Positions 30,093 through 43,155 of a stretch of 64,000 nt of DNA are shown here, piece by piece. The DNA lies in NCBI RefSeq assembly GCF_000970455.1, contig NZ_LAJG01000005.1, positions 310,001 to 374,000 of the forward strand. The letters run 5' to 3'. Positions within the stretch are counted from its first letter, which is position 1. Every line of letters begins with the position of its first letter. The translations under genes were made by a program, and so were the position numbers. The DNA is from Devosia soli. GTDB taxonomy: Bacteria > Pseudomonadota > Alphaproteobacteria > Rhizobiales > Devosiaceae. Under the pieces are notes generated by a model. The model worked only from the letters and a program-made list of their open reading frames with translations, did not search any database and was not told where the DNA came from.

Positions 30093-30965
30093 TCATGCTG
30101 ATGCCCGCGCTTGCTCGATTTCCTCAATGCGGAATGTTGCGCTACCGGATTTCCCAAGGATCACCGGTCGTCCGCGCATCTTCTCGACAGCCTTGAAGTC
30201 CGGATGATCGGGTTTGAGGACGACGAGGCCATTGTCCGCCGGCGGCACTGGGTCGGATCTCAGCGGCAGATGCAGAAAATCGACCCATGCACCAGTTCGA
30301 ATCCACTTCCCGAGACCAGGGCGGAATTTCAGTTGGGCGTTCGGATCGACTTTGCGTGCCTCGCTGTCTTCCAGGTGCCACTGGGTGAACCGCTTGACGG
30401 CGATGACAAGACGATTGGTCTCTTCATCCGTCAGTCGCGAGAATTCACGCTTGGCCTCTGTCCGGTTGGCGCCGGGCCGCTGAGGAAACCAGCTCCAAAC
30501 ATCGTCAAACGAAACTCGCTCGCACGCTTCCGAGCGAAGCGAGGTATTGGAAGGATGATCTGGAAGTATAGTAGGAACGTGGTTCCTCACCTTAGCGGAA
30601 CCTGGTTCCGCACCTTCGCCAAAACGTGCGGAACGTAGTTCCTCACCTTCATCAACATCTTGATATTGCTCGCCTAGATGTTGTGTCGGCCATGATGCTT
30701 CATACTCGTGGTTCCGCCACTTTTGGCCACGAAATCCATGCTCTCGCTTGACGAGCCACCCCGCTTCAACAGCAGCGTCGATGTGCTTCCGAACCGCTCG
30801 GTCGGAAAGCCCGCTTGCTTCGGCCAGCTGCTCTTGGGTCGGGTAGCATCCGCCGCCGACGTCGTTCATGAAGCAGGAGATGGTCAGTAGCACGTGCCTG
30901 GTCGTCGGAGGCAAATCCGACTTCAGGACAGCATGACGCCATGACCAGGAGCGTGTTTCCGTCAT
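30093..30965 (-). CDS. Replication-type winged-helix (HTH_36-like) protein
   Basis: Residues 15-95 fit a helix-turn-helix found in phage replication initiators: TTRHVLLTISCFMNDVGGGCYPTQEQLAEASGLSDRAVRKHIDAAVEAGWLVKREHG. The middle is poorly conserved and the C-terminal 60 residues are beta-rich. It follows the DnaA domain IV-like gene with ATGA overlap, so the two may act together in starting phage replication. Function is inferred. Confidence 0.75.
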   Translation of the reverse strand: MTETRSWSWRHAVLKSDLPPTTRHVLLTISCFMNDVGGGCYPTQEQLAEASGLSDRAVRKHIDAAVEAGWLVKREHGFRGQKWRNHEYEASWPTQHLGEQYQDVDEGEELRSARFGEGAEPGSAKVRNHVPTILPDHPSNTSLRSEACERVSFDDVWSWFPQRPGANRTEAKREFSRLTDEETNRLVIAVKRFTQWHLEDSEARKVDPNAQLKFRPGLGKWIRTGAWVDFLHLPLRSDPVPPADNGLVVLKPDHPDFKAVEKMRGRPVILGKSGSATFRIEEIEQARASA

Positions 30966-31651
30966 CCAGCGCCACCGTCGAGCGGCTTGCGCCGAAGCCC
31001 TAGACGGTGGGCCATGACGTTTACTGCATTGCTGGTTGTACCTAACTCCTCCACCAGAACCCGAGTGGGCACGCCGTTCTTGTAGGCGCGCGCCACGGCC
31101 TTTTGCAGGGCAGTTCGTGGCGTATGTGGGTCGTCGACCCTCAGCGGAAGCTTTCGGCCACTGTTCGGGCGCAGCAGAGCGCGCGTGCCCTCAAACAAGT
31201 CTACAAGCTTGCCGCGAGCGTTGTACTTGTTCATCGCATAGCAGACGGTGCTATGGTCTTTACCGAAGAGGCGGCCAATCGCAGGCAGGCTTGCCTGGGT
31301 ATGCTGGTATGTCAGCACGAGGGCGTGGTGTCGGGCATCGACAACTTCTCGCGTCCGGTTGCTTCCGAGAATATCCGAAGCATCGACACCACCGGCCAAG
31401 GCAGCGTACTCCACCAAGAACCGCCACGAGCACGCCCGCAGCATGTTCAGCGGCACACCATTGCTATCCGTTTCGCTGATCGCTTCAGGAAGCGCGACAA
31501 TCGGCTGTTTAGGGGATTCTCGGCGCAGCCTTTCTCGAACACTAGCACTATGGGCTAGCATTTCTTGCGCTGATGAAAAGGTGCGGTCTACAGGCGCCTT
31601 CGGATGATGGCTGTGCTGCGTTCTGATTAAGGGCAGATACGAGACCGTCAT
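30962..31651 (-). CDS. DnaA domain IV-like DNA-binding protein
   Basis: Residues 88-150 match the DnaA C-terminal domain: ILGSNRTREVVDARHHALVL followed by LPAIGRLFGKDHSTVCYAMNKY, including the HTH and the DHSTV signature that reads the DnaA box. No AAA+ domain is present. The last 45 residues form a second HTH-like element (GVPTRVLVEELGTTSNAVNVMAHRLGL). It may bind DnaA boxes of the phage or the host origin. Confidence 0.82.
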   Translation of the reverse strand: MTVSYLPLIRTQHSHHPKAPVDRTFSSAQEMLAHSASVRERLRRESPKQPIVALPEAISETDSNGVPLNMLRACSWRFLVEYAALAGGVDASDILGSNRTREVVDARHHALVLTYQHTQASLPAIGRLFGKDHSTVCYAMNKYNARGKLVDLFEGTRALLRPNSGRKLPLRVDDPHTPRTALQKAVARAYKNGVPTRVLVEELGTTSNAVNVMAHRLGLRRKPLDGGAG

Positions 31652-31982: not shown

Positions 31983-32974
31983 GCGACGGCATCCGCGAAC
32001 AGATGCTCGGTCTGCGAGCGTTCCAAATCCGCGATGTTCTTGACCGCCTGGCGGAAATAGCTGGACTTGAGCTCGAACCCTAAGCCCTTCCGGCCCATTT
32101 CGACGGCGCTGTAGACCTCGCTGCCGATGCCGAGGAAAGGCGTAAGAACCGTCTCCCCGGGAAGGCTCCACAGGTCGATGCACCGCTCGATTACGTCGAG
32201 CTGCAGCGGCGAGATATGGACTTCATCCTTTTCATCGCGTGCATTGCGATACTGCAGCGTGCGGGTCTGGCTGATATCCATCCATACCGGCGAGGCGTAG
32301 CGCTGCCAGACAAGAACCGAACGCCACATGTCGCGGGGCCACGGCTTCCAAGTCTGGCCGGCGTCGGCGGGCGGGTTTGCGCAATAGCGTTCATAGGCAG
32401 CATCGGACACATCGAGACCTTCGCCGACGAAGCGTTCAAACATGCCAACGACAGGGTCAGCATTCTCGCCGGGCTTCCGGAACGTGACGATGTAATCGGC
32501 GAGCCCCTGCCCGCTGATGGTGCTGTCTTTCGTCACCTGCTTGTGCAGGAGGCGAATGGACTTGGTGCGCTGCTGGGCAACGACGGGGTCTTTCCAGATG
32601 CAGACCTCGGAATGGAAGATCCAGCCTGCATCGCAATAGGCTTGGACAACCTCGCCGCGGAAGTCGCGCATGCCAATGAAGCCATCGCGGGCCTTGCTCG
32701 TCGGCAACTGCATACAGTGAACCGAATGCAGTCTGCCCGGCTTAGTGACGCGCAGAAGCTCCTGGATCAGGAAGGCGTAATGCGTCCAGAAGCCCTCTTT
32801 GTCGTTGTTCGAGATATCCCGATCGGAATTGCTGAAGCGGTACAGGCCTTCGAACGGTGGCGAGTGGATGCCGAAGTCGATGCTGTCACCAGGTACGGCG
32901 CGAATTAGCTCGCAGCTGTCGCCCTGATAAATCGCATAGCGGTCAGTGATGACCTGTTCGATCGCATTGATCAT
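31979..32974 (-). CDS. DNA methyltransferase (N4-cytosine/N6-adenine type)
   Basis: The 331-residue protein has catalytic motif SPPF (38-41) before the AdoMet motif FLGIGSE (280-286), the beta-class order. The long middle part may contain the target recognition domain. SPPF-type motifs occur in both N4C and N6A enzymes, so the target base is not decided. No restriction enzyme partner is visible, so it probably protects phage DNA. It overlaps the helicase gene by ATGA. Confidence 0.88.
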   Translation of the reverse strand: MINAIEQVITDRYAIYQGDSCELIRAVPGDSIDFGIHSPPFEGLYRFSNSDRDISNNDKEGFWTHYAFLIQELLRVTKPGRLHSVHCMQLPTSKARDGFIGMRDFRGEVVQAYCDAGWIFHSEVCIWKDPVVAQQRTKSIRLLHKQVTKDSTISGQGLADYIVTFRKPGENADPVVGMFERFVGEGLDVSDAAYERYCANPPADAGQTWKPWPRDMWRSVLVWQRYASPVWMDISQTRTLQYRNARDEKDEVHISPLQLDVIERCIDLWSLPGETVLTPFLGIGSEVYSAVEMGRKGLGFELKSSYFRQAVKNIADLERSQTEHLFADAVA

Positions 32975-34353
32975 GCTGCGTTTCCGATCCAGTTGGGGAG
33001 CGTCATGGGCACGGCCGGCGAATAGTCGGCGCGCGTGCGGGCCATGCCGCGAATGTTTTCGGCTGATAGGTCGGCCATATGCTCGACCATGGCGGCGGCC
33101 ATGCGCTCAGCGTCCGCTTCTTTGCGGCGCAGGTTTGCCACCACGGCGCCCTCAGTTTCTGCGCTGATGAAATGAACGGTAACTGGCTTCTGCTGTCCGA
33201 AGCGCCAGAACCGGCGCTCTGCCTGATAAATCTGCTCGAAACTGTCGTTGAGCCCGACGAATCCGGTGTCAGCGCAGTGCTGCCAGTTCATGCCGAAACC
33301 GGCGATGCTCGGCTTAGTGATCAGGACGCGGATATTGCCGTCAGTGAAGGCGTTAAGCTTGGCTTCTTTGGCGTCGTCCGAATCCGAACCAGCGACTTCC
33401 ACAGCGCCGGGGATCGATAAGCGCAGTGCCTCGCTCTCTGCGTTCAGGTTGCACCACCAGACGAAAGGTCGGCCTCCTGGCGTGATCGAAGCGGCGAGCT
33501 CGACGCGCTGCGCAACGGTATCGCGGCGCGCGGCAATGCGCTCTTGCATGGTGCGGGCTTCCATAGGGAATAGGAGCCCGGTGTCCATGCTAGGGGCATA
33601 TTCGGCGGCAACGACGTGCTGATGCCGTTTTATGGGCGGCAGATCATAGCCTTCATCGGAATATCCAAGGTCGGAAGGCTTGCGCAGCATGACGGCCCAC
33701 GAGGCCATCCACTTCCAAAACTCAGTTTCGGCATGGCCCTTGAGGCGCCACTTCTGCGTATCGCCACCGTCATGGGTGAAGAACGTCGCGAGCATGTCGG
33801 TGTAAGACATGGCACCAATGAACTCGGCATGATTGCCAAGCTCCATGAAATCGTTCGGCGCCGGTGTCGCTGTCGCCGCAAGGCGGAAAGGAACATCGCG
33901 GCAGTCATTGATCAGCTTTGTTCGATATTTGCCGTCGGTGCTCTTAAGGATCGAGCTTTCATCGAGAGCTACGCCCCCGAGCTCGCCAAGCGCAAAGCGA
34001 TCGAGCTTCTGATAGTTGGTGACCTCGATCACGCCGTCAGACTGCGCTGTGACCACTCGGGCAGGCACGCCGAAACGATCCGCCTCGCGCTCATGCTGAT
34101 GCGACACAGCCAGTGGGGCGAGCAGTAACACCGGCTTGCGGGTATAGCGCGAGACCTCATGCGCCCAGACAAGCTCCATAAGCGTCTTGCCCAAGCCCGT
34201 GCCGGCGAACAGCGCTGCGCGACCGCGGCGCAGTGCCCACTGCGTTATGTCGCGCTGATGCGGGAACATAAAGCTGGGAAGCTCGATCCGTTCGGTGATG
34301 CCGGTCTCTGGATCACTGATCTGCTTTTGGGCAAGGAAGTCGGCGTAGCTCAT
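32971..34353 (-). CDS. SNF2-like DEAD/DEAH helicase/translocase
   Basis: The 460-residue protein has Walker A GTGLGKT (51-57), DESS (131-134) as motif II, TATP (161-164) as motif III and a motif VI QAERRFWRFGQQKP (377-390) of SNF2 type (QxxxRxxRxGQ). It lacks extra recognition domains. It is coupled to the methyltransferase gene. It may remodel DNA during phage replication or modification; exact role unknown. Confidence 0.88.
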   Translation of the reverse strand: MSYADFLAQKQISDPETGITERIELPSFMFPHQRDITQWALRRGRAALFAGTGLGKTLMELVWAHEVSRYTRKPVLLLAPLAVSHQHEREADRFGVPARVVTAQSDGVIEVTNYQKLDRFALGELGGVALDESSILKSTDGKYRTKLINDCRDVPFRLAATATPAPNDFMELGNHAEFIGAMSYTDMLATFFTHDGGDTQKWRLKGHAETEFWKWMASWAVMLRKPSDLGYSDEGYDLPPIKRHQHVVAAEYAPSMDTGLLFPMEARTMQERIAARRDTVAQRVELAASITPGGRPFVWWCNLNAESEALRLSIPGAVEVAGSDSDDAKEAKLNAFTDGNIRVLITKPSIAGFGMNWQHCADTGFVGLNDSFEQIYQAERRFWRFGQQKPVTVHFISAETEGAVVANLRRKEADAERMAAAMVEHMADLSAENIRGMARTRADYSPAVPMTLPNWIGNAA

Positions 34354-35302: not shown

Positions 35303-35603
35303 GTTGGGAGCCAGGACAGGACGCAGACGAGGAAAGGCGACGAAGACGATGGATCGACCGGTCAGCGAAGAATTGAGAGCCTTGCTGCGCCGGCAGGAAA
35401 TGCGCGGATCGACGGCGGGAACCGTCAAACCGCACGCGATGCGTTGGGCGAATGACCTCCTCGATAGGGAGGAGGGTTTCGAAAGAGATCATTCGCCCGC
35501 CGGCGGGAGGGAACGTCGCCGGTATGGGAATTACAAAGCCAGGGTGCGCATCATCAGAGCGCGTCCGTTCTTGGCGATAATTGATGGCGGGAAGAGCTGA
35601 CAT
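35220..35603 (-). CDS. Hypothetical protein coupled to small membrane gene
   Basis: The ATG overlaps the upstream TGA (TGATG), which favours real translation. The first 60 residues look protein-like (PPAGGRMISFETLLPIEEVI), but the last 60 are Ser/Arg/Gln-rich and overlap the next gene. Either the gene truly ends here, or the reading shifts into the 34784-35302 frame. Confidence 0.4.
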   Translation of the reverse strand: MSALPAINYRQERTRSDDAHPGFVIPIPATFPPAGGRMISFETLLPIEEVIRPTHRVRFDGSRRRSAHFLPAQQGSQFFADRSIHRLRRLSSSASCPGSQHASRQEQGRGIVSQELGQIGQGRTHHD

Positions 35604-35794
35604 CAGTCGTCGCCCCGCGCCTTACGCTCGAGCGCGCCGAACACGAGCAGCGCAACCGGCAGCGAAATCACAATACAGCCCAGCAGCAGGCCGGCGCCTC
35701 GCGCGATCAGTAGGCAAAAGCCAAGAGCCGCAGCGAACACCCAGAGGGCAAATGCAAAGTCCGACAGAAAGCGAGCTGTGTGGCGCGAGGTCAT
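35603..35794 (-). CDS. Small two-pass membrane protein
   Basis: The 63-residue protein has two hydrophobic segments (about 10-28 and 33-53, LLLGCIVISLPVALLVFGAL) and a charged tail (ERKARGDD). Coupled by ATGA to the GapR/ParB-like gene. Could be a superinfection-exclusion membrane protein, but no family signature is seen. Confidence 0.6.
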   Translation of the reverse strand: MTSRHTARFLSDFAFALWVFAAALGFCLLIARGAGLLLGCIVISLPVALLVFGALERKARGDD

Positions 35795-36906
35795 ACCGCA
35801 AGCTCCGCAACTGCTTTGATGATCTCGCGCTTGCGCTCTGGCGCCAGCACAGAAAGCCGCTGAACAACAAGCTGCTTTTCGCGATCGGTCATGATCCGGC
35901 CGGCCATATTCCAGCGGATGCAGTCCATCAGCGGATCGCTGCCGTCATACTGGACGACCTGGTATTCCGTGGAGTGACCGTCGAGCCCGATGGCGCCGCG
36001 CGCCGTCATATACCGGGCCCAGCCATCGAGGATCGAATTGCCGATCTTGACGATCGGGGCCGCCTTGGCGCCGGCGATGTCATCGGCGATGACGACGATG
36101 TCCTGCCCCAGCGTGCCGAAGGCAGTGGAATAGGGATGGCGCTCTACACCTTCAGGCGGAGTGCTTTCCCATACGACGACGCCAGGGGCAGCATAGAGGG
36201 AGGCCGGAGCGGCAGAGGCCGAAGCCTCCACCGACTTACCCGCAACGTCGGCATTATCGCAGAGCGCCGACTGTCCCTGCCCTTCCGGGGTTTCTGCCCG
36301 GTGCGATTCCTGAATTTCTGCGTCAAGACCGGCGCCGACGCTCGCCCTACTCGCATCTGCCGTCACACCGTCGGCAGGCGTCTCAATGTCCTGCTCAGTC
36401 GTGCCGCCGTCTGTGGATGCTTTCGCTTCGGGATTTGGTGCGACCTGATCGTTGCTTGGGGACGAGTGCACGACCAGGTCGCTTCCAGCCGCTTTGGTCG
36501 GCTGGTTTTTGGTGAGATCATTTTGCTTGTTCGACAAGTCGCTCTTTGGAGCGATGTTGGCGGCCTCGACGATGGCGAGGGCTGGATTCGATCGAAGTGT
36601 CGCCACGGTCGTCTTGGCGGGAAATTCTTCAATGTTTTCTACGCGTGCGTGCGCGGAGCTTTTTTCGGAGGCATGAACGGCATCCCAATACAGGTCAAAG
36701 ACCGTGTCCTGCTCCTCGCGCTCGTCAGCGGGAAGGCGGCGCTTCTGGATGACCTTGCGCAGTTGCTTGGTGTCGAACCCGGAAGATTTTGCTTCCTTGT
36801 AGACTTCAGACTTGTCCGCGTTGAGCGCAACGATCTCGTCTTCGAGGCTTTCGATGCGGCGAACGAAATCCTTCAGTTTGTCCTGAGCAAGGTTTGTGTC
36901 GGCCAT
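35791..36906 (-). CDS. GapR (DUF2312) domain fused to ParB-like domain
   Basis: Residues 1-80 match GapR, the alphaproteobacterial protein that binds overtwisted DNA: LKDFVRRIESLEDEIVALNADKSEVYKEAK then FDTKQLRKVIQKRR. A disordered linker of about 170 residues follows. Residues about 255-350 read like a ParB/Srx-type domain: HPYSTAF, SILDGWARYM (292-301), QYDGSDPLMDCIRWNMAGRIMTDREKQLVVQRL. Host GapR is about 90 residues and stands alone. The fusion suggests a phage DNA-topology or partition protein. Nuclease or CTPase activity is not shown by sequence. Confidence 0.8.
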   Translation of the reverse strand: MADTNLAQDKLKDFVRRIESLEDEIVALNADKSEVYKEAKSSGFDTKQLRKVIQKRRLPADEREEQDTVFDLYWDAVHASEKSSAHARVENIEEFPAKTTVATLRSNPALAIVEAANIAPKSDLSNKQNDLTKNQPTKAAGSDLVVHSSPSNDQVAPNPEAKASTDGGTTEQDIETPADGVTADASRASVGAGLDAEIQESHRAETPEGQGQSALCDNADVAGKSVEASASAAPASLYAAPGVVVWESTPPEGVERHPYSTAFGTLGQDIVVIADDIAGAKAAPIVKIGNSILDGWARYMTARGAIGLDGHSTEYQVVQYDGSDPLMDCIRWNMAGRIMTDREKQLVVQRLSVLAPERKREIIKAVAELAV

Positions 36907-36909
36907 GGC

Positions 36910-37263
36910 CTATCTCCCCACTACAGCGAGAGATTGATTGCGGCCCTTGATTTTCCGCATGGCGCCGCGAGCTACGAGCTGATGGACGCCCCGATGAACG
37001 GCCGACTTACTGGACAAGCCAAGCCCGGCGCCGATCTGGTCATAAGTCGGGGAATAACCATGCTCGTCGATGAAGGCTTCGACGAAGGCCAGCATCTTGG
37101 ATTGGCTCTCGTTGAGGCCATAACCTTGAACCTTCTGCTCGGCTTCCACGGCCATGATGATCCTGGCCGTGTATTCGAGATCGTCGCGAACGTTGCGGTG
37201 CGCATCCATGAGGATAGCAGCACGCTCGGCAATGCTGGCGGGGATATCGGAAGGAAGGGTCAT
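36910..37263 (-). CDS. LexA-type DNA-binding domain protein, no peptidase domain
   Basis: Residues 52-115 match the LexA winged helix (LNESQSKMLAFVEAFIDEHGYSPTYDQIGAGLGLSSKSAVHRGVHQLVARGAMRK). The autocleavage domain is missing. It could occupy LexA-like boxes without being cleaved in the SOS response. It overlaps the Cro-like gene by ATGA. Confidence 0.8.
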   Translation of the reverse strand: MTLPSDIPASIAERAAILMDAHRNVRDDLEYTARIIMAVEAEQKVQGYGLNESQSKMLAFVEAFIDEHGYSPTYDQIGAGLGLSSKSAVHRGVHQLVARGAMRKIKGRNQSLAVVGR

Positions 37264-37460
37264 GCTGCGGCTCCCTCAGACTTTGAGGCGAAATCCGCAA
37301 ACGTGACCTGGCCTTCAGTGGCCTTCTCGATTTCAGCAATGACGGAGAGCGTCAGATGATCGCCATTCATGTAGCGATGCACCTGCTGGCGGCTCTTTTT
37401 GATCCGCTTTGCGAAGTCGGTTACGGTGGTGTGTTGCCGGATATACGCTTCAAGCTGCAT
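37260..37460 (-). CDS. Cro-like HTH repressor
   Basis: Starting at ATG 37460 the product has 66 residues: MQLEAYIRQHTTVTDFAKRIKKSRQQVHRYMNGDHLTLSVIAEIEKATEG, a short XRE/Cro fold. The 5' extension in the frame to 37496 is unlikely since it runs into the operator. The operator 37460-37478 touches the start codon, and there is no normal ribosome binding site, so it may be leaderless. It heads the leftward early genes. Confidence 0.8.
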   Translation of the reverse strand: MQLEAYIRQHTTVTDFAKRIKKSRQQVHRYMNGDHLTLSVIAEIEKATEGQVTFADFASKSEGAAA

Positions 37461-37478
37461 GTAACAATTTCTGCTACA
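37460..37478. promoter_or_regulatory. Operator palindrome 1 (repressor/Cro gap)
   Basis: TGTAACA-ATTTC-TGCTACA is a 7-5-7 inverted repeat with six of seven arm pairs. It overlaps the cro-like start and should block its transcription when bound. Confidence 0.7.
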
Positions 37479-37502
37479 ACTTGGAGCGCACGTCAAGCAC
37501 TA

Positions 37503-37522: not shown

Positions 37523-37556
37523 ATGCGACATTCGCCATGCTGGATAGATGTCGCAT
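37523..37556. promoter_or_regulatory. Inverted repeat before repressor start
   Basis: ATGCGACA (37523-37530) and TGTCGCAT (37549-37556) form perfect 8-base arms with an 18-base spacer, the second arm covering the ATG at 37555. It might be a site for another regulator or an mRNA hairpin over the start. Confidence 0.4.
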
Positions 37557-38277
37557 GGCAAACTGGCTTGAACCGTTCATCAAAAATTCGCCCGTCGCTT
37601 CGCAGGAAGCGCTTGCGGATCTGCTCGGTGTTTCCCGCGCCACGGTGAACCGGCTAGCCAATGATCACAGCAAGCTCAAGCGCGACCGCGCGGAACTGAT
37701 GGCGCCACACCTGGGCGTGACAGCTGAGGATCTGATGCTGAACCGGCTGCCTTGGGAGGCGAAGACAAGTGCGCCACCTGATGGCGAGCACATCAGGCGC
37801 GGCCTTCCGCTGGGCTCAGCGATCGTCGTGGCCACGGTAGAGGCCGGCGCCTGGCGCGAGGTTGATGAGTTCGACCAGTCAGACCCGGAATGGGTAGCGG
37901 TCCCGCCAGATGACAAATACCCCGACGCCACCCAGGACGTTTACAACGTAGCCGGCGACAGCATGAATGCGCTGCAGCCTCATCCGATCACGCCCGGGTC
38001 GCGCGTCGTTGCGATCCGCTATGATGAGATCGCTTCTCGCGCGCCGCTGCGCGACGGTCTAGTGGTTGTGGTGCAGCGCTCGAGGAACGGCGGTCAGGAG
38101 CGCGAGCTCACCGTGAAGCAAGTGGCCTGGTTCGATGACCGGATTGAGTTCCAACCCAGGTCCACCAATCCTAAGCACAAGCCCATCGTTGTTGAGCATG
38201 ACAGCTGGGAAGACAATGGGGTCGAGGTCGCCATCGTGGGGCTGGTGAGGGATATTATCCATAGGTTGCCGGGATGA
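37555..38277 (+). CDS. CI/LexA-type prophage repressor (S24 peptidase)
   Basis: From ATG 37555 (MANWLEPF) the protein has 240 residues; an ATG six codons earlier is possible. The N-terminal 60 residues are an HTH (SQEALADLLGVSRATVNRLANDHSKL). The C-terminal S24 domain has VEAGAW with the Ala-Gly cut site (97-98), Ser136 in AGDSMNA and Lys188 in LTVKQVAW. RecA-triggered self-cleavage would induce the prophage. It is divergent from the cro-like gene and its operators. Confidence 0.9.
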   Translation: MANWLEPFIKNSPVASQEALADLLGVSRATVNRLANDHSKLKRDRAELMAPHLGVTAEDLMLNRLPWEAKTSAPPDGEHIRRGLPLGSAIVVATVEAGAWREVDEFDQSDPEWVAVPPDDKYPDATQDVYNVAGDSMNALQPHPITPGSRVVAIRYDEIASRAPLRDGLVVVVQRSRNGGQERELTVKQVAWFDDRIEFQPRSTNPKHKPIVVEHDSWEDNGVEVAIVGLVRDIIHRLPG

Positions 38278-42413: not shown

Positions 42414-42550
42414 AAGCCACCTACCTCATAGGCTCTGGCCGCCCTCTGTTTGAGCTTCCTGAAGGAAAGTTCTTCGGGGCCTTCACTCAACGTCTTGTTC
42501 CTATTCCTTCCCCTTCTGACCGTGCTGTTGAACCGAGAAAGGCAGCGTGA
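42410..42550 (+). CDS. 46-residue hypothetical protein
   Basis: A short frame with ATGA overlap at its start and TGATG overlap at its end. The product (MKATYLIGSGRPLFELPEGK...) has a KFFGAF core and Pro/Ser-rich tail. Family unknown. Confidence 0.55.
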   Translation: MKATYLIGSGRPLFELPEGKFFGAFTQRLVPIPSPSDRAVEPRKAA

Positions 42551-43155
42551 TGGCGAACAATTACACTTCGGCCGGCGCGCGCATCTCTGCTGATGGTCGG
42601 TATCGATACCATCTTTGGCGCGAGTGGAGACTTTGGCCAGAAGCGGCGCATTGGGGATGGTGGAAAGACCCTGATACGGGCGAGCAAATTGTAGACGGCG
42701 CCGGTGAGCCGATCGGCTGGCCGAAGTCTGTTCTGTTCGTAATGCTGAATCCGTCGACCGCCGATGGAGAGACTGACGACCCAACTATCCGGCGCTGCGT
42801 CGGATTTGCGCGGTCGTGGGGCTATGATCGCATGGATGTGGTGAACTTGTTCGCATATCGCGCGACCGATCCCGCTGCACTACTGGCGCTGAACCATTTT
42901 GACGATCCTGTCGGACCCGACAATTGCCGCATCGTCAGTCAGCTCATCGCGGAACGTGAGGAGTTCGGCGCAATAGCGATCGACAAGGTGGTCTGCGCCT
43001 GGGGCAATCACGGGGCACACCTCGGACAAGACGAGACCATGCTGGGATGGCTGGGTGATTGCCCGCGCTACGTTCTCAAGGTCTCGAAGGATGGCCATCC
43101 CGGCCATCCGCTTTACCTGCCCAAGACATCGCCGTTGGTGGAGTTTCGCTCATGA
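42550..43155 (+). CDS. DUF1643 family protein
   Basis: The 201-residue protein has RYRYHLWREW, then VLFVMLNPSTADGETDDPTIRRCVGFARSWGYDRMDVVNLFAYRATDP and DNCRIVSQL, the full DUF1643 pattern. The family is widespread in phages and bacteria, function not settled. A GTG one codon upstream is not needed. Confidence 0.88.
   Translation: MANNYTSAGARISADGRYRYHLWREWRLWPEAAHWGWWKDPDTGEQIVDGAGEPIGWPKSVLFVMLNPSTADGETDDPTIRRCVGFARSWGYDRMDVVNLFAYRATDPAALLALNHFDDPVGPDNCRIVSQLIAEREEFGAIAIDKVVCAWGNHGAHLGQDETMLGWLGDCPRYVLKVSKDGHPGHPLYLPKTSPLVEFRS

Follow-up and report, generated by a model that had tools for sequence, protein, structure and literature searches.

The window, a stretch of 64,000 nucleotides of Devosia soli (NZ_LAJG01000005.1, positions 310,001 to 374,000), contains a prophage that carries terminase, capsid, integrase and methylase genes and is also present in IMG/VR as a 46,697-base contig (L006, L013). 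One of its early genes encodes a GapR domain, a long linker and a ParB-like domain in a single polypeptide. The features of this gene and its neighbourhood are as follows.

30093-30965, same strand as the fusion gene and downstream of it: O-like initiator
30962-31651, same strand, downstream: DnaA-C-terminal-type protein
32971-34353, same strand, downstream: helicase
35603..35794 (-): ORF of 63 aa that overlaps the fusion gene at its end, hydrophobic by eye, no Pfam match at E <= 1
35791..36906 (-): GapR-linker-ParB-like fusion gene, 371 aa, ATG start, early gene of the prophage
35800..36177 (-): ParB-like C-terminal domain, residues about 244-369 (AlphaFold2, Foldseek, hhalign)
36199..36645 (-): disordered linker, residues 88-236 (pLDDT < 50; blastn blocks with 77-98% identity to different relatives)
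36676..36888 (-): GapR domain, residues 7-77 (PF10073, E 1.1e-22; sequences of solved GapR structures matched by phmmer, best E 6.3e-16)
36910..37263 (-): gene with a LexA-type DNA-binding domain, upstream of the fusion gene (PF01726, E 1.6e-10)
37260..37496 (-): cro-like HTH gene (PF01381, E 2.5e-5)
37537..38277 (+): divergent CI-like repressor with HTH and S24 peptidase domains (PF01381, E 9.3e-7; PF00717, E 2.6e-6)

The rightward region of the prophage also encodes a DUF1643 protein (42547-43155, plus strand; PF07799, E 7.7e-37).

The gene order S24 repressor, cro-like, LexA-like, fusion places the gene behind cro, and the first-pass annotation was right to call it an early gene. Among relatives, 24 of 35 divergent ORFs encode an S24 repressor, and 14 of 70 upstream ORFs have a LexA-type domain. 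A full-length relative at locus L007, with 41% identity, indicates that the reading frame is real. AlphaFold2 (31 rows) modelled the protein confidently at residues 10-50 and from about residue 241 onward, and the 133 residues with pLDDT below 50 all fall within 88-225, leaving a disordered middle of about 150 residues. The architecture first proposed from the letters alone, a GapR domain followed by a linker and a ParB-like region, is therefore upheld by the PF10073 match, the AlphaFold2 model and the predicted ParB-type fold, and the motifs ILDGWARY and GSDPL lie where they had been placed. The observation of a GapR-ParB fusion is thus confirmed.

The profile search that had been suggested for the GapR half gave a clear result, with PF10073 (GapR_DNA-bd) matching over 71 of 72 positions at 79.8 bits (cut-off 22.6). 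The protein misses the stricter cut-offs of the NCBIfam GapR equivalog (57.9 bits vs 140) and of PRK13694 (69.7 bits vs 94). Helices are predicted at residues 3-41, 46-56 and 60-87 in the AlphaFold2 monomer. Its N-terminal 71 residues align without gaps to GapR of Caulobacter crescentus, and E28/R65, Y82 and most of the basic residues of helix 2 are retained. Eight residues of GapR, K34, K42, K49, K56, K59, K60, R63 and K66, are described as phosphate contacts (PMC7498317). The first-pass annotation would have abandoned its idea if the residues that hold DNA were missing; in the ungapped alignment five of the eight positions are basic in the fusion (K40, K47, R50, K51, R57), while three differ from the Caulobacter protein (K34 to I25, K42 to S33, R63 to Q54). 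Caulobacter GapR is also a stand-alone protein of 89 aa, whereas the module here occupies the N-terminal fifth of a phage protein of 371 aa. The host genome encodes three other GapR-type ORFs, all stand-alone and of 85-103 aa, so that the GapR module of the fusion could be redundant. GapR in Erythrobacter phages was reported as the first in a phage (PMC12185513), yet proteins annotated as DUF2312 occur in phage records that predate this report.

The C-terminal domain is more diverged. No Pfam family matches it at E <= 10, and PF02195 (ParB_N) is matched by the C-domains of only three of 32 relatives, weakly (best E 0.032). When the whole 371-aa model was compared with the PDB by Foldseek, the first three matches were all of ParB type, namely PNOB8 ParB-N (5k5d), PadC (6ryk) and Noc (7nfu), with E values of 0.012, 0.043 and 0.34; no match fell below 0.001. 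Against viral models, a protein without a name came first (E 7.4e-4), and one annotated as 'ParB-like nuclease domain protein' came third. A profile built from five relatives picked out, in a related genome, an ORF for a ParB-methyltransferase (L055), and the 32-row C-domain family aligned with eleven N-domains of ParB-methyltransferase ORFs at an hhalign probability of 99. A ParB/Srx-type fold is therefore likely, as a prediction from models and profiles. Of the ParB check proposed at first, the fold was predicted as expected, and the Pfam match to a ParB family was not found. That the domain is instead some other small alpha/beta fold, and the ParB-like assignment wrong, would fit the lack of a significant Pfam match and an hmmsearch of PDB sequences with the C-domain that gave nothing under E 0.59 (the best being SbnI, which we take to be a ParB/Srx-type enzyme). 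The hhalign result and the leading Foldseek matches argue against this reading, which we regard as very improbable.

Four residues, D57, G58, R61 and R100, are invariant in all 32 C-domains, and they include the G and R of the LDGWxRY motif. The CTP pocket of ParB is marked by the motifs GxxR and ENxxR. The family retains GWxR and has not retained the E of ENxxR, and this loss makes nucleotide binding by the domain uncertain. A heading in a survey of ParB folds states that NTP binding is not predicted by sequence or by AlphaFold3 (PMC12704722). The ParB-methyltransferase fusions and divergent ParB-CTPase folds treated there resemble the C-domain in profile and in predicted fold, and they are likewise found in phage and likewise fused to a foreign domain. 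The protein described here differs from them in that its partner is GapR and that PF02195 barely detects the domain; the main text of the survey contains neither 'GapR' nor 'DUF2312'.

According to Pfam and the AlphaFold2 model, the protein ends at the ParB-like domain and has neither the central HTH nor the C-terminal dimer domain of ParB. This bears on the suggestion, made in the first-pass annotation, that the fusion could guide partition. A partition protein of an extrachromosomal prophage would be in keeping with the ParB-like fold and with a relative in Devosia sp. SL43 (WP_236900009.1, whose entry already carries the name 'GapR family DNA-binding domain-containing protein'), which is found together with phage genes on a circular record of 44.65 kb. 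However, none of the eight ParA (PF13614) matches in the host genome lies in the window or elsewhere on its contig (C44), the PLSDB gene tables, which are incomplete, list no parA for the SL43 record, and both the window prophage and the SL43 element carry integrases. Without ParA in the window and without an HTH, a role in partition is scarcely to be expected, and a ParAB system, which would also need the dimer domain, was rejected.

The fusion is a member of a widespread family of shuffled early proteins. A scan with the C-domain recovered 33 viral contigs, one of them the window's own, and ten loci in genomes of Devosia, Ensifer, Shinella, Pseudorhizobium and other Rhizobiales. It matched 10 of 101 related genomes, one match being the ParB-methyltransferase of L055, and 20 of 397 genomes sampled from the order; five of these were strong (E <= 1e-39), and the weaker ones among those listed were mostly ParB-methyltransferases. 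The GapR domain (PF10073) is present in 25 of 31 C-domain proteins, and the others have N-modules of the LSSKF, IPDD or MITRK type. The first-pass annotation did not know this architecture from described phages. In the main texts searched we too found no paper describing a GapR-ParB fusion, GapR, ParB, phage and fusion occurring together in one unrelated paper, and 'GapR', 'ParB' and 'DUF2312' are absent from the main text of two papers on phiLM21-type phages. The architecture is nevertheless one of several within the family and not peculiar to the phage. Protein p022 of Sinorhizobium phage phiLM21 (AII27774.1, 'hypothetical protein'), encoded by the second gene behind cro, has the ParB-like C-domain and similar linker blocks, and differs in its IPDD-type N-module, which is remotely GapR-like at most (hhalign probability 89). 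Conversely, EVB88_065 of Rhizobium phage RHph_N28_2, directly behind a short gene beside an S24 repressor, has a GapR domain and linker and differs in ending with a Cys/His motif.

Comparisons at the DNA level demonstrate that N- and C-modules have recently been swapped between genes of this family. Loci L043 and L132 are 94% identical in N-module and linker, and one ends in a ParB-like domain and the other in a Cys/His motif; L010 and L028 (96%), and L039 and L041 (95%), share their C-modules and differ in their N-modules. When viral contigs were scanned for GapR, the best 80 of at least 539 loci contained 84 GapR ORFs, 59 of them approximately stand-alone, and six of the extended ones had, by eye, a Cys/His motif at their end. 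Scanning with one linker cassette gave 31 loci, in which GapR was combined with Cys/His 16 times, with a ParB-like domain twice and with other ends twice, and other N-modules with ParB-like four times, with other ends four times and with Cys/His three times; the start of L226 is probably wrong and some contigs duplicate earlier loci in these counts. The recurrent C-terminal C..C...HC..C of GapR-linker proteins (L090, L132, L111, L092, L063 and others) is possibly a small zinc module. The LSSKF and MITRK N-modules have no detectable relation to GapR (hhalign probabilities of 0.7 and 1.7), and the LSSKF type was dismissed as a GapR on this ground, its AlphaFold2 model being helical but poor (pLDDT 60.8).

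The linker itself is a mosaic of cassettes shared with other genes of the family, as seen in blastn blocks. Among 47 genes, the linker blocks all agree in strand, and in 84 of the 88 gene pairs that have only a linker block in common the block is in the same frame, so that the cassettes recombine in frame. Mismatches in the linkers are commonest at codon position 3 (933 vs 552 and 413), and the linker is thus under coding constraint. Three other accounts of the linker DNA were set aside. The 447-nt linker matches only itself in its own genome and 10 of 101 genomes overall, and is not a host-wide repeat; the arms of a double hairpin within it, treated as a genome repeat, matched 10 of 101 genomes, seven of the matches lying in the fusion gene family, with three matches for the reversed control; and a search for iterons or a replication origin gave two-copy families and distant inverted pairs alone.

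We propose, at a probability of roughly 0.4, that the fusion serves a temperate phage as an early regulator anchored to DNA, with GapR gripping the DNA and a nucleotide-dependent effector head on a tether. The GapR module would form a tetramer that grips DNA through the backbone and, as GapR does, may prefer DNA that is AT-rich or overtwisted. The disordered tether of about 150 residues would carry the ParB/Srx-fold head, which may bind nucleotide and, once loaded, dimerise or engage a partner. Immediately after the lytic switch, the head could in this way be delivered to phage DNA that is being transcribed or replicated and there affect transcription or replication. The proposal draws on the PF10073 match with its five basic contacts, the ParB-type fold with the invariant G and R of LDGWxRY, the gene order and the frequency of S24 repressors, the GapR domain in 25 of 31 C-domain proteins, the module swaps, and the in-frame linkers with mismatches commonest at codon position 3. 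Against it stand the three lost contacts, scores below the NCBIfam GapR cut-offs, the modest Foldseek E values, the lost E of ENxxR, the family N-modules that are not detectably related to GapR, and the stand-alone GapR-type ORFs of the host. The shuffled phage regulators of the KilA-N/BRO kind exchange DNA-binding and effector modules in early proteins in the same manner, although their domains are unrelated to those described here.

The neighbouring genes raise the question of replication. The protein could mark overtwisted DNA in front of the phage fork and, as GapR does, stimulate the topoisomerases of the host, while its head contacts phage replication proteins. The O-like initiator, the DnaA-C-terminal-type protein and the helicase downstream on the same strand, and the role published for GapR in Caulobacter (PMC12185513), agree with such a helper function. 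The initiators are, however, about 4 kb away, neither fused nor adjacent, and N-modules unrelated to GapR occur at the same place, and we consider this function unlikely. The strong shuffling of modules can also be read in terms of the host, the fusion competing with host GapR on the nucleoid or bringing its head to the DNA of an invading phage, in which case an arms race would lie behind the rapid exchange. For ParB fusions in phages, the survey of ParB folds suggests a part in anti-defence or in the interaction of phage and host (PMC12704722), and BstA offers a precedent from a prophage for a protein that acts at phage replication sites. Such takeover or anti-host activity seems to us decidedly unlikely. 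As an early regulator or otherwise, the protein is of wider interest. GapR and ParB are DNA clamps that have been studied separately, and phages have joined the one to the probable fold of the other, each being exchangeable. With both DNA-binding module and head swapped and the early position constant, the family provides natural chimeras in which the role of each module can be asked.

The most surprising part of the locus is the RNA elements within and behind the fusion gene, which are the following.

36430..36516 (-): element A, a tandem double hairpin in linker-coding DNA, in frame (covariation, RNAalifold, model R1, 75.2 bits)
35446..35522 (-): element B, downstream of the fusion gene, a tandem double hairpin whose loops are of CCUCC type (z -4.9 in the window)

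Element B was found under a looser folding rule after 47 of 69 family genes, with 35 of the 47 at z <= -3, and in two antisense and five upstream controls. Under a strict rule that required contiguous stems it was detected at 11 of 70 genes but not in the window, and a mixed descriptor gave 23 sense and eight antisense matches in 72 genes. Since C-rich loops turn G-rich on the opposite strand, the antisense control is not a fair one, and the upstream control is fairer. At genome loci the element was present in nine of nine (antisense two, upstream one; one short locus left out), a result that mostly repeats genomes already counted, only L269, L271 and L272 being new. The MAFFT alignment was too gapped for pairs to be counted. 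The Rfam search, which covered 27 loci and parts of the window, gave no match to element B in the window, and in six relatives gave matches to ar14 (RF02344) or CcsR1 (RF02791) that lie under the gathering cut-offs (L204 46.6 and L210 45.9 vs 58.8; L028 38.0 and L029 37.1). The loop in the window is AACCCUCCUCCCUA, and L204, L206, L210 and L200 carry CCUCCUCCC in both loops. Loops of the CCUCCUCCC type are described as anti-Shine-Dalgarno motifs in RNAs of Rhizobiales (PMC3927594, PMC10746234). Element B resembles ar14 and CcsR1 in these loops and in having diverged stems; it has two hairpins where they have three. A literature query combining CCUCCUCCC and phage returned no papers.

Element A is present in 16 genes of the set, not in all. 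In these 16 sequences 97.9% of cells are paired, and double changes number 16 against 4.0 (sd 1.5) in shuffles. The covariation of 0.222 against 0.095 was reached by none of 500 shuffles, a comparison that relatedness of the sequences can inflate, and it comes mostly from helix 1, helix 2 being mostly invariant. Model R1 finds one strong copy in the window and copies of at least 69 bits in 11 of 136 family genomes, among them that of L249, a GapR-ParB gene that was not among the sequences of the model. A locus of another genus, L258, scores 32.6 bits to element A within the linker of an unrelated protein; there the second stem is paired differently. In outline alone, such double hairpins recall the putRNA of HK022, of about 70 nt with two stem-loops in an early operon (PMC9378689). 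Element A was also considered as a terminator and rejected as such: an A-run before it makes a terminator-like site on the other strand in the window alone, and this was not kept in the relatives examined.

Other RNAs are lodged in the linkers of relatives. A complete tRNA-Arg(TCT) lies in frame in L024 (2067-2142, plus strand) and in L070 (1893-1968, minus strand), according to ARAGORN and Rfam, and the two acceptor stems differ, by eye, by a paired change; a pattern search for the tRNA cassette matched its own contig alone. The DUF3800-VIII RNA (RF03075) exceeds the Rfam cut-off, again in frame, in L008 (6266-6332, plus strand) and L050 (1073-1139, plus strand), and its model matched 2 of 136 family genomes, that of L050 itself and one site with no long ORF across it. 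Both RNAs lie near or touching element A, in an order that varies among relatives.

It is possible, though on the whole doubtful, that the linkers are double-coded, their DNA docking in-frame RNA cassettes (double hairpin A, tRNA-Arg and DUF3800-VIII RNA). Such cassettes would have to stay in frame, and disorder in the linker protein would be the price of carrying RNA. Together with element B, the early mRNA would then serve as messenger for the modular GapR-ParB regulator and also as several riboregulators, which might be antiterminators of the put kind or anti-Shine-Dalgarno RNAs. Should the linker RNAs prove functional, these genes would clearly exemplify protein linkers that selection on RNA has shaped. 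A more extreme version, in which the gene is mainly a carrier of RNA elements acting in cis or trans and the linker owes its disorder to selection on its DNA as RNA, could appeal to the covariation of element A, to its companions in varying order and to the related double hairpin of L258. We consider it improbable: both folded ends are conserved as proteins, the frame and codon positions of the linker show coding constraint, and element A is confined to part of the set.

The linker cassettes were also seen in proteins of other composition. In L059 (1286-2164, plus strand) and L258 (827-1984, plus strand) the same cassettes accompany a different coiled-coil start and, by eye, an HTH-looking end, and in L221, L222, L223 and L225 a cassette is attached to an N-terminal domain that resembles, again by eye, another type of ParB with the motif LADGFHR.
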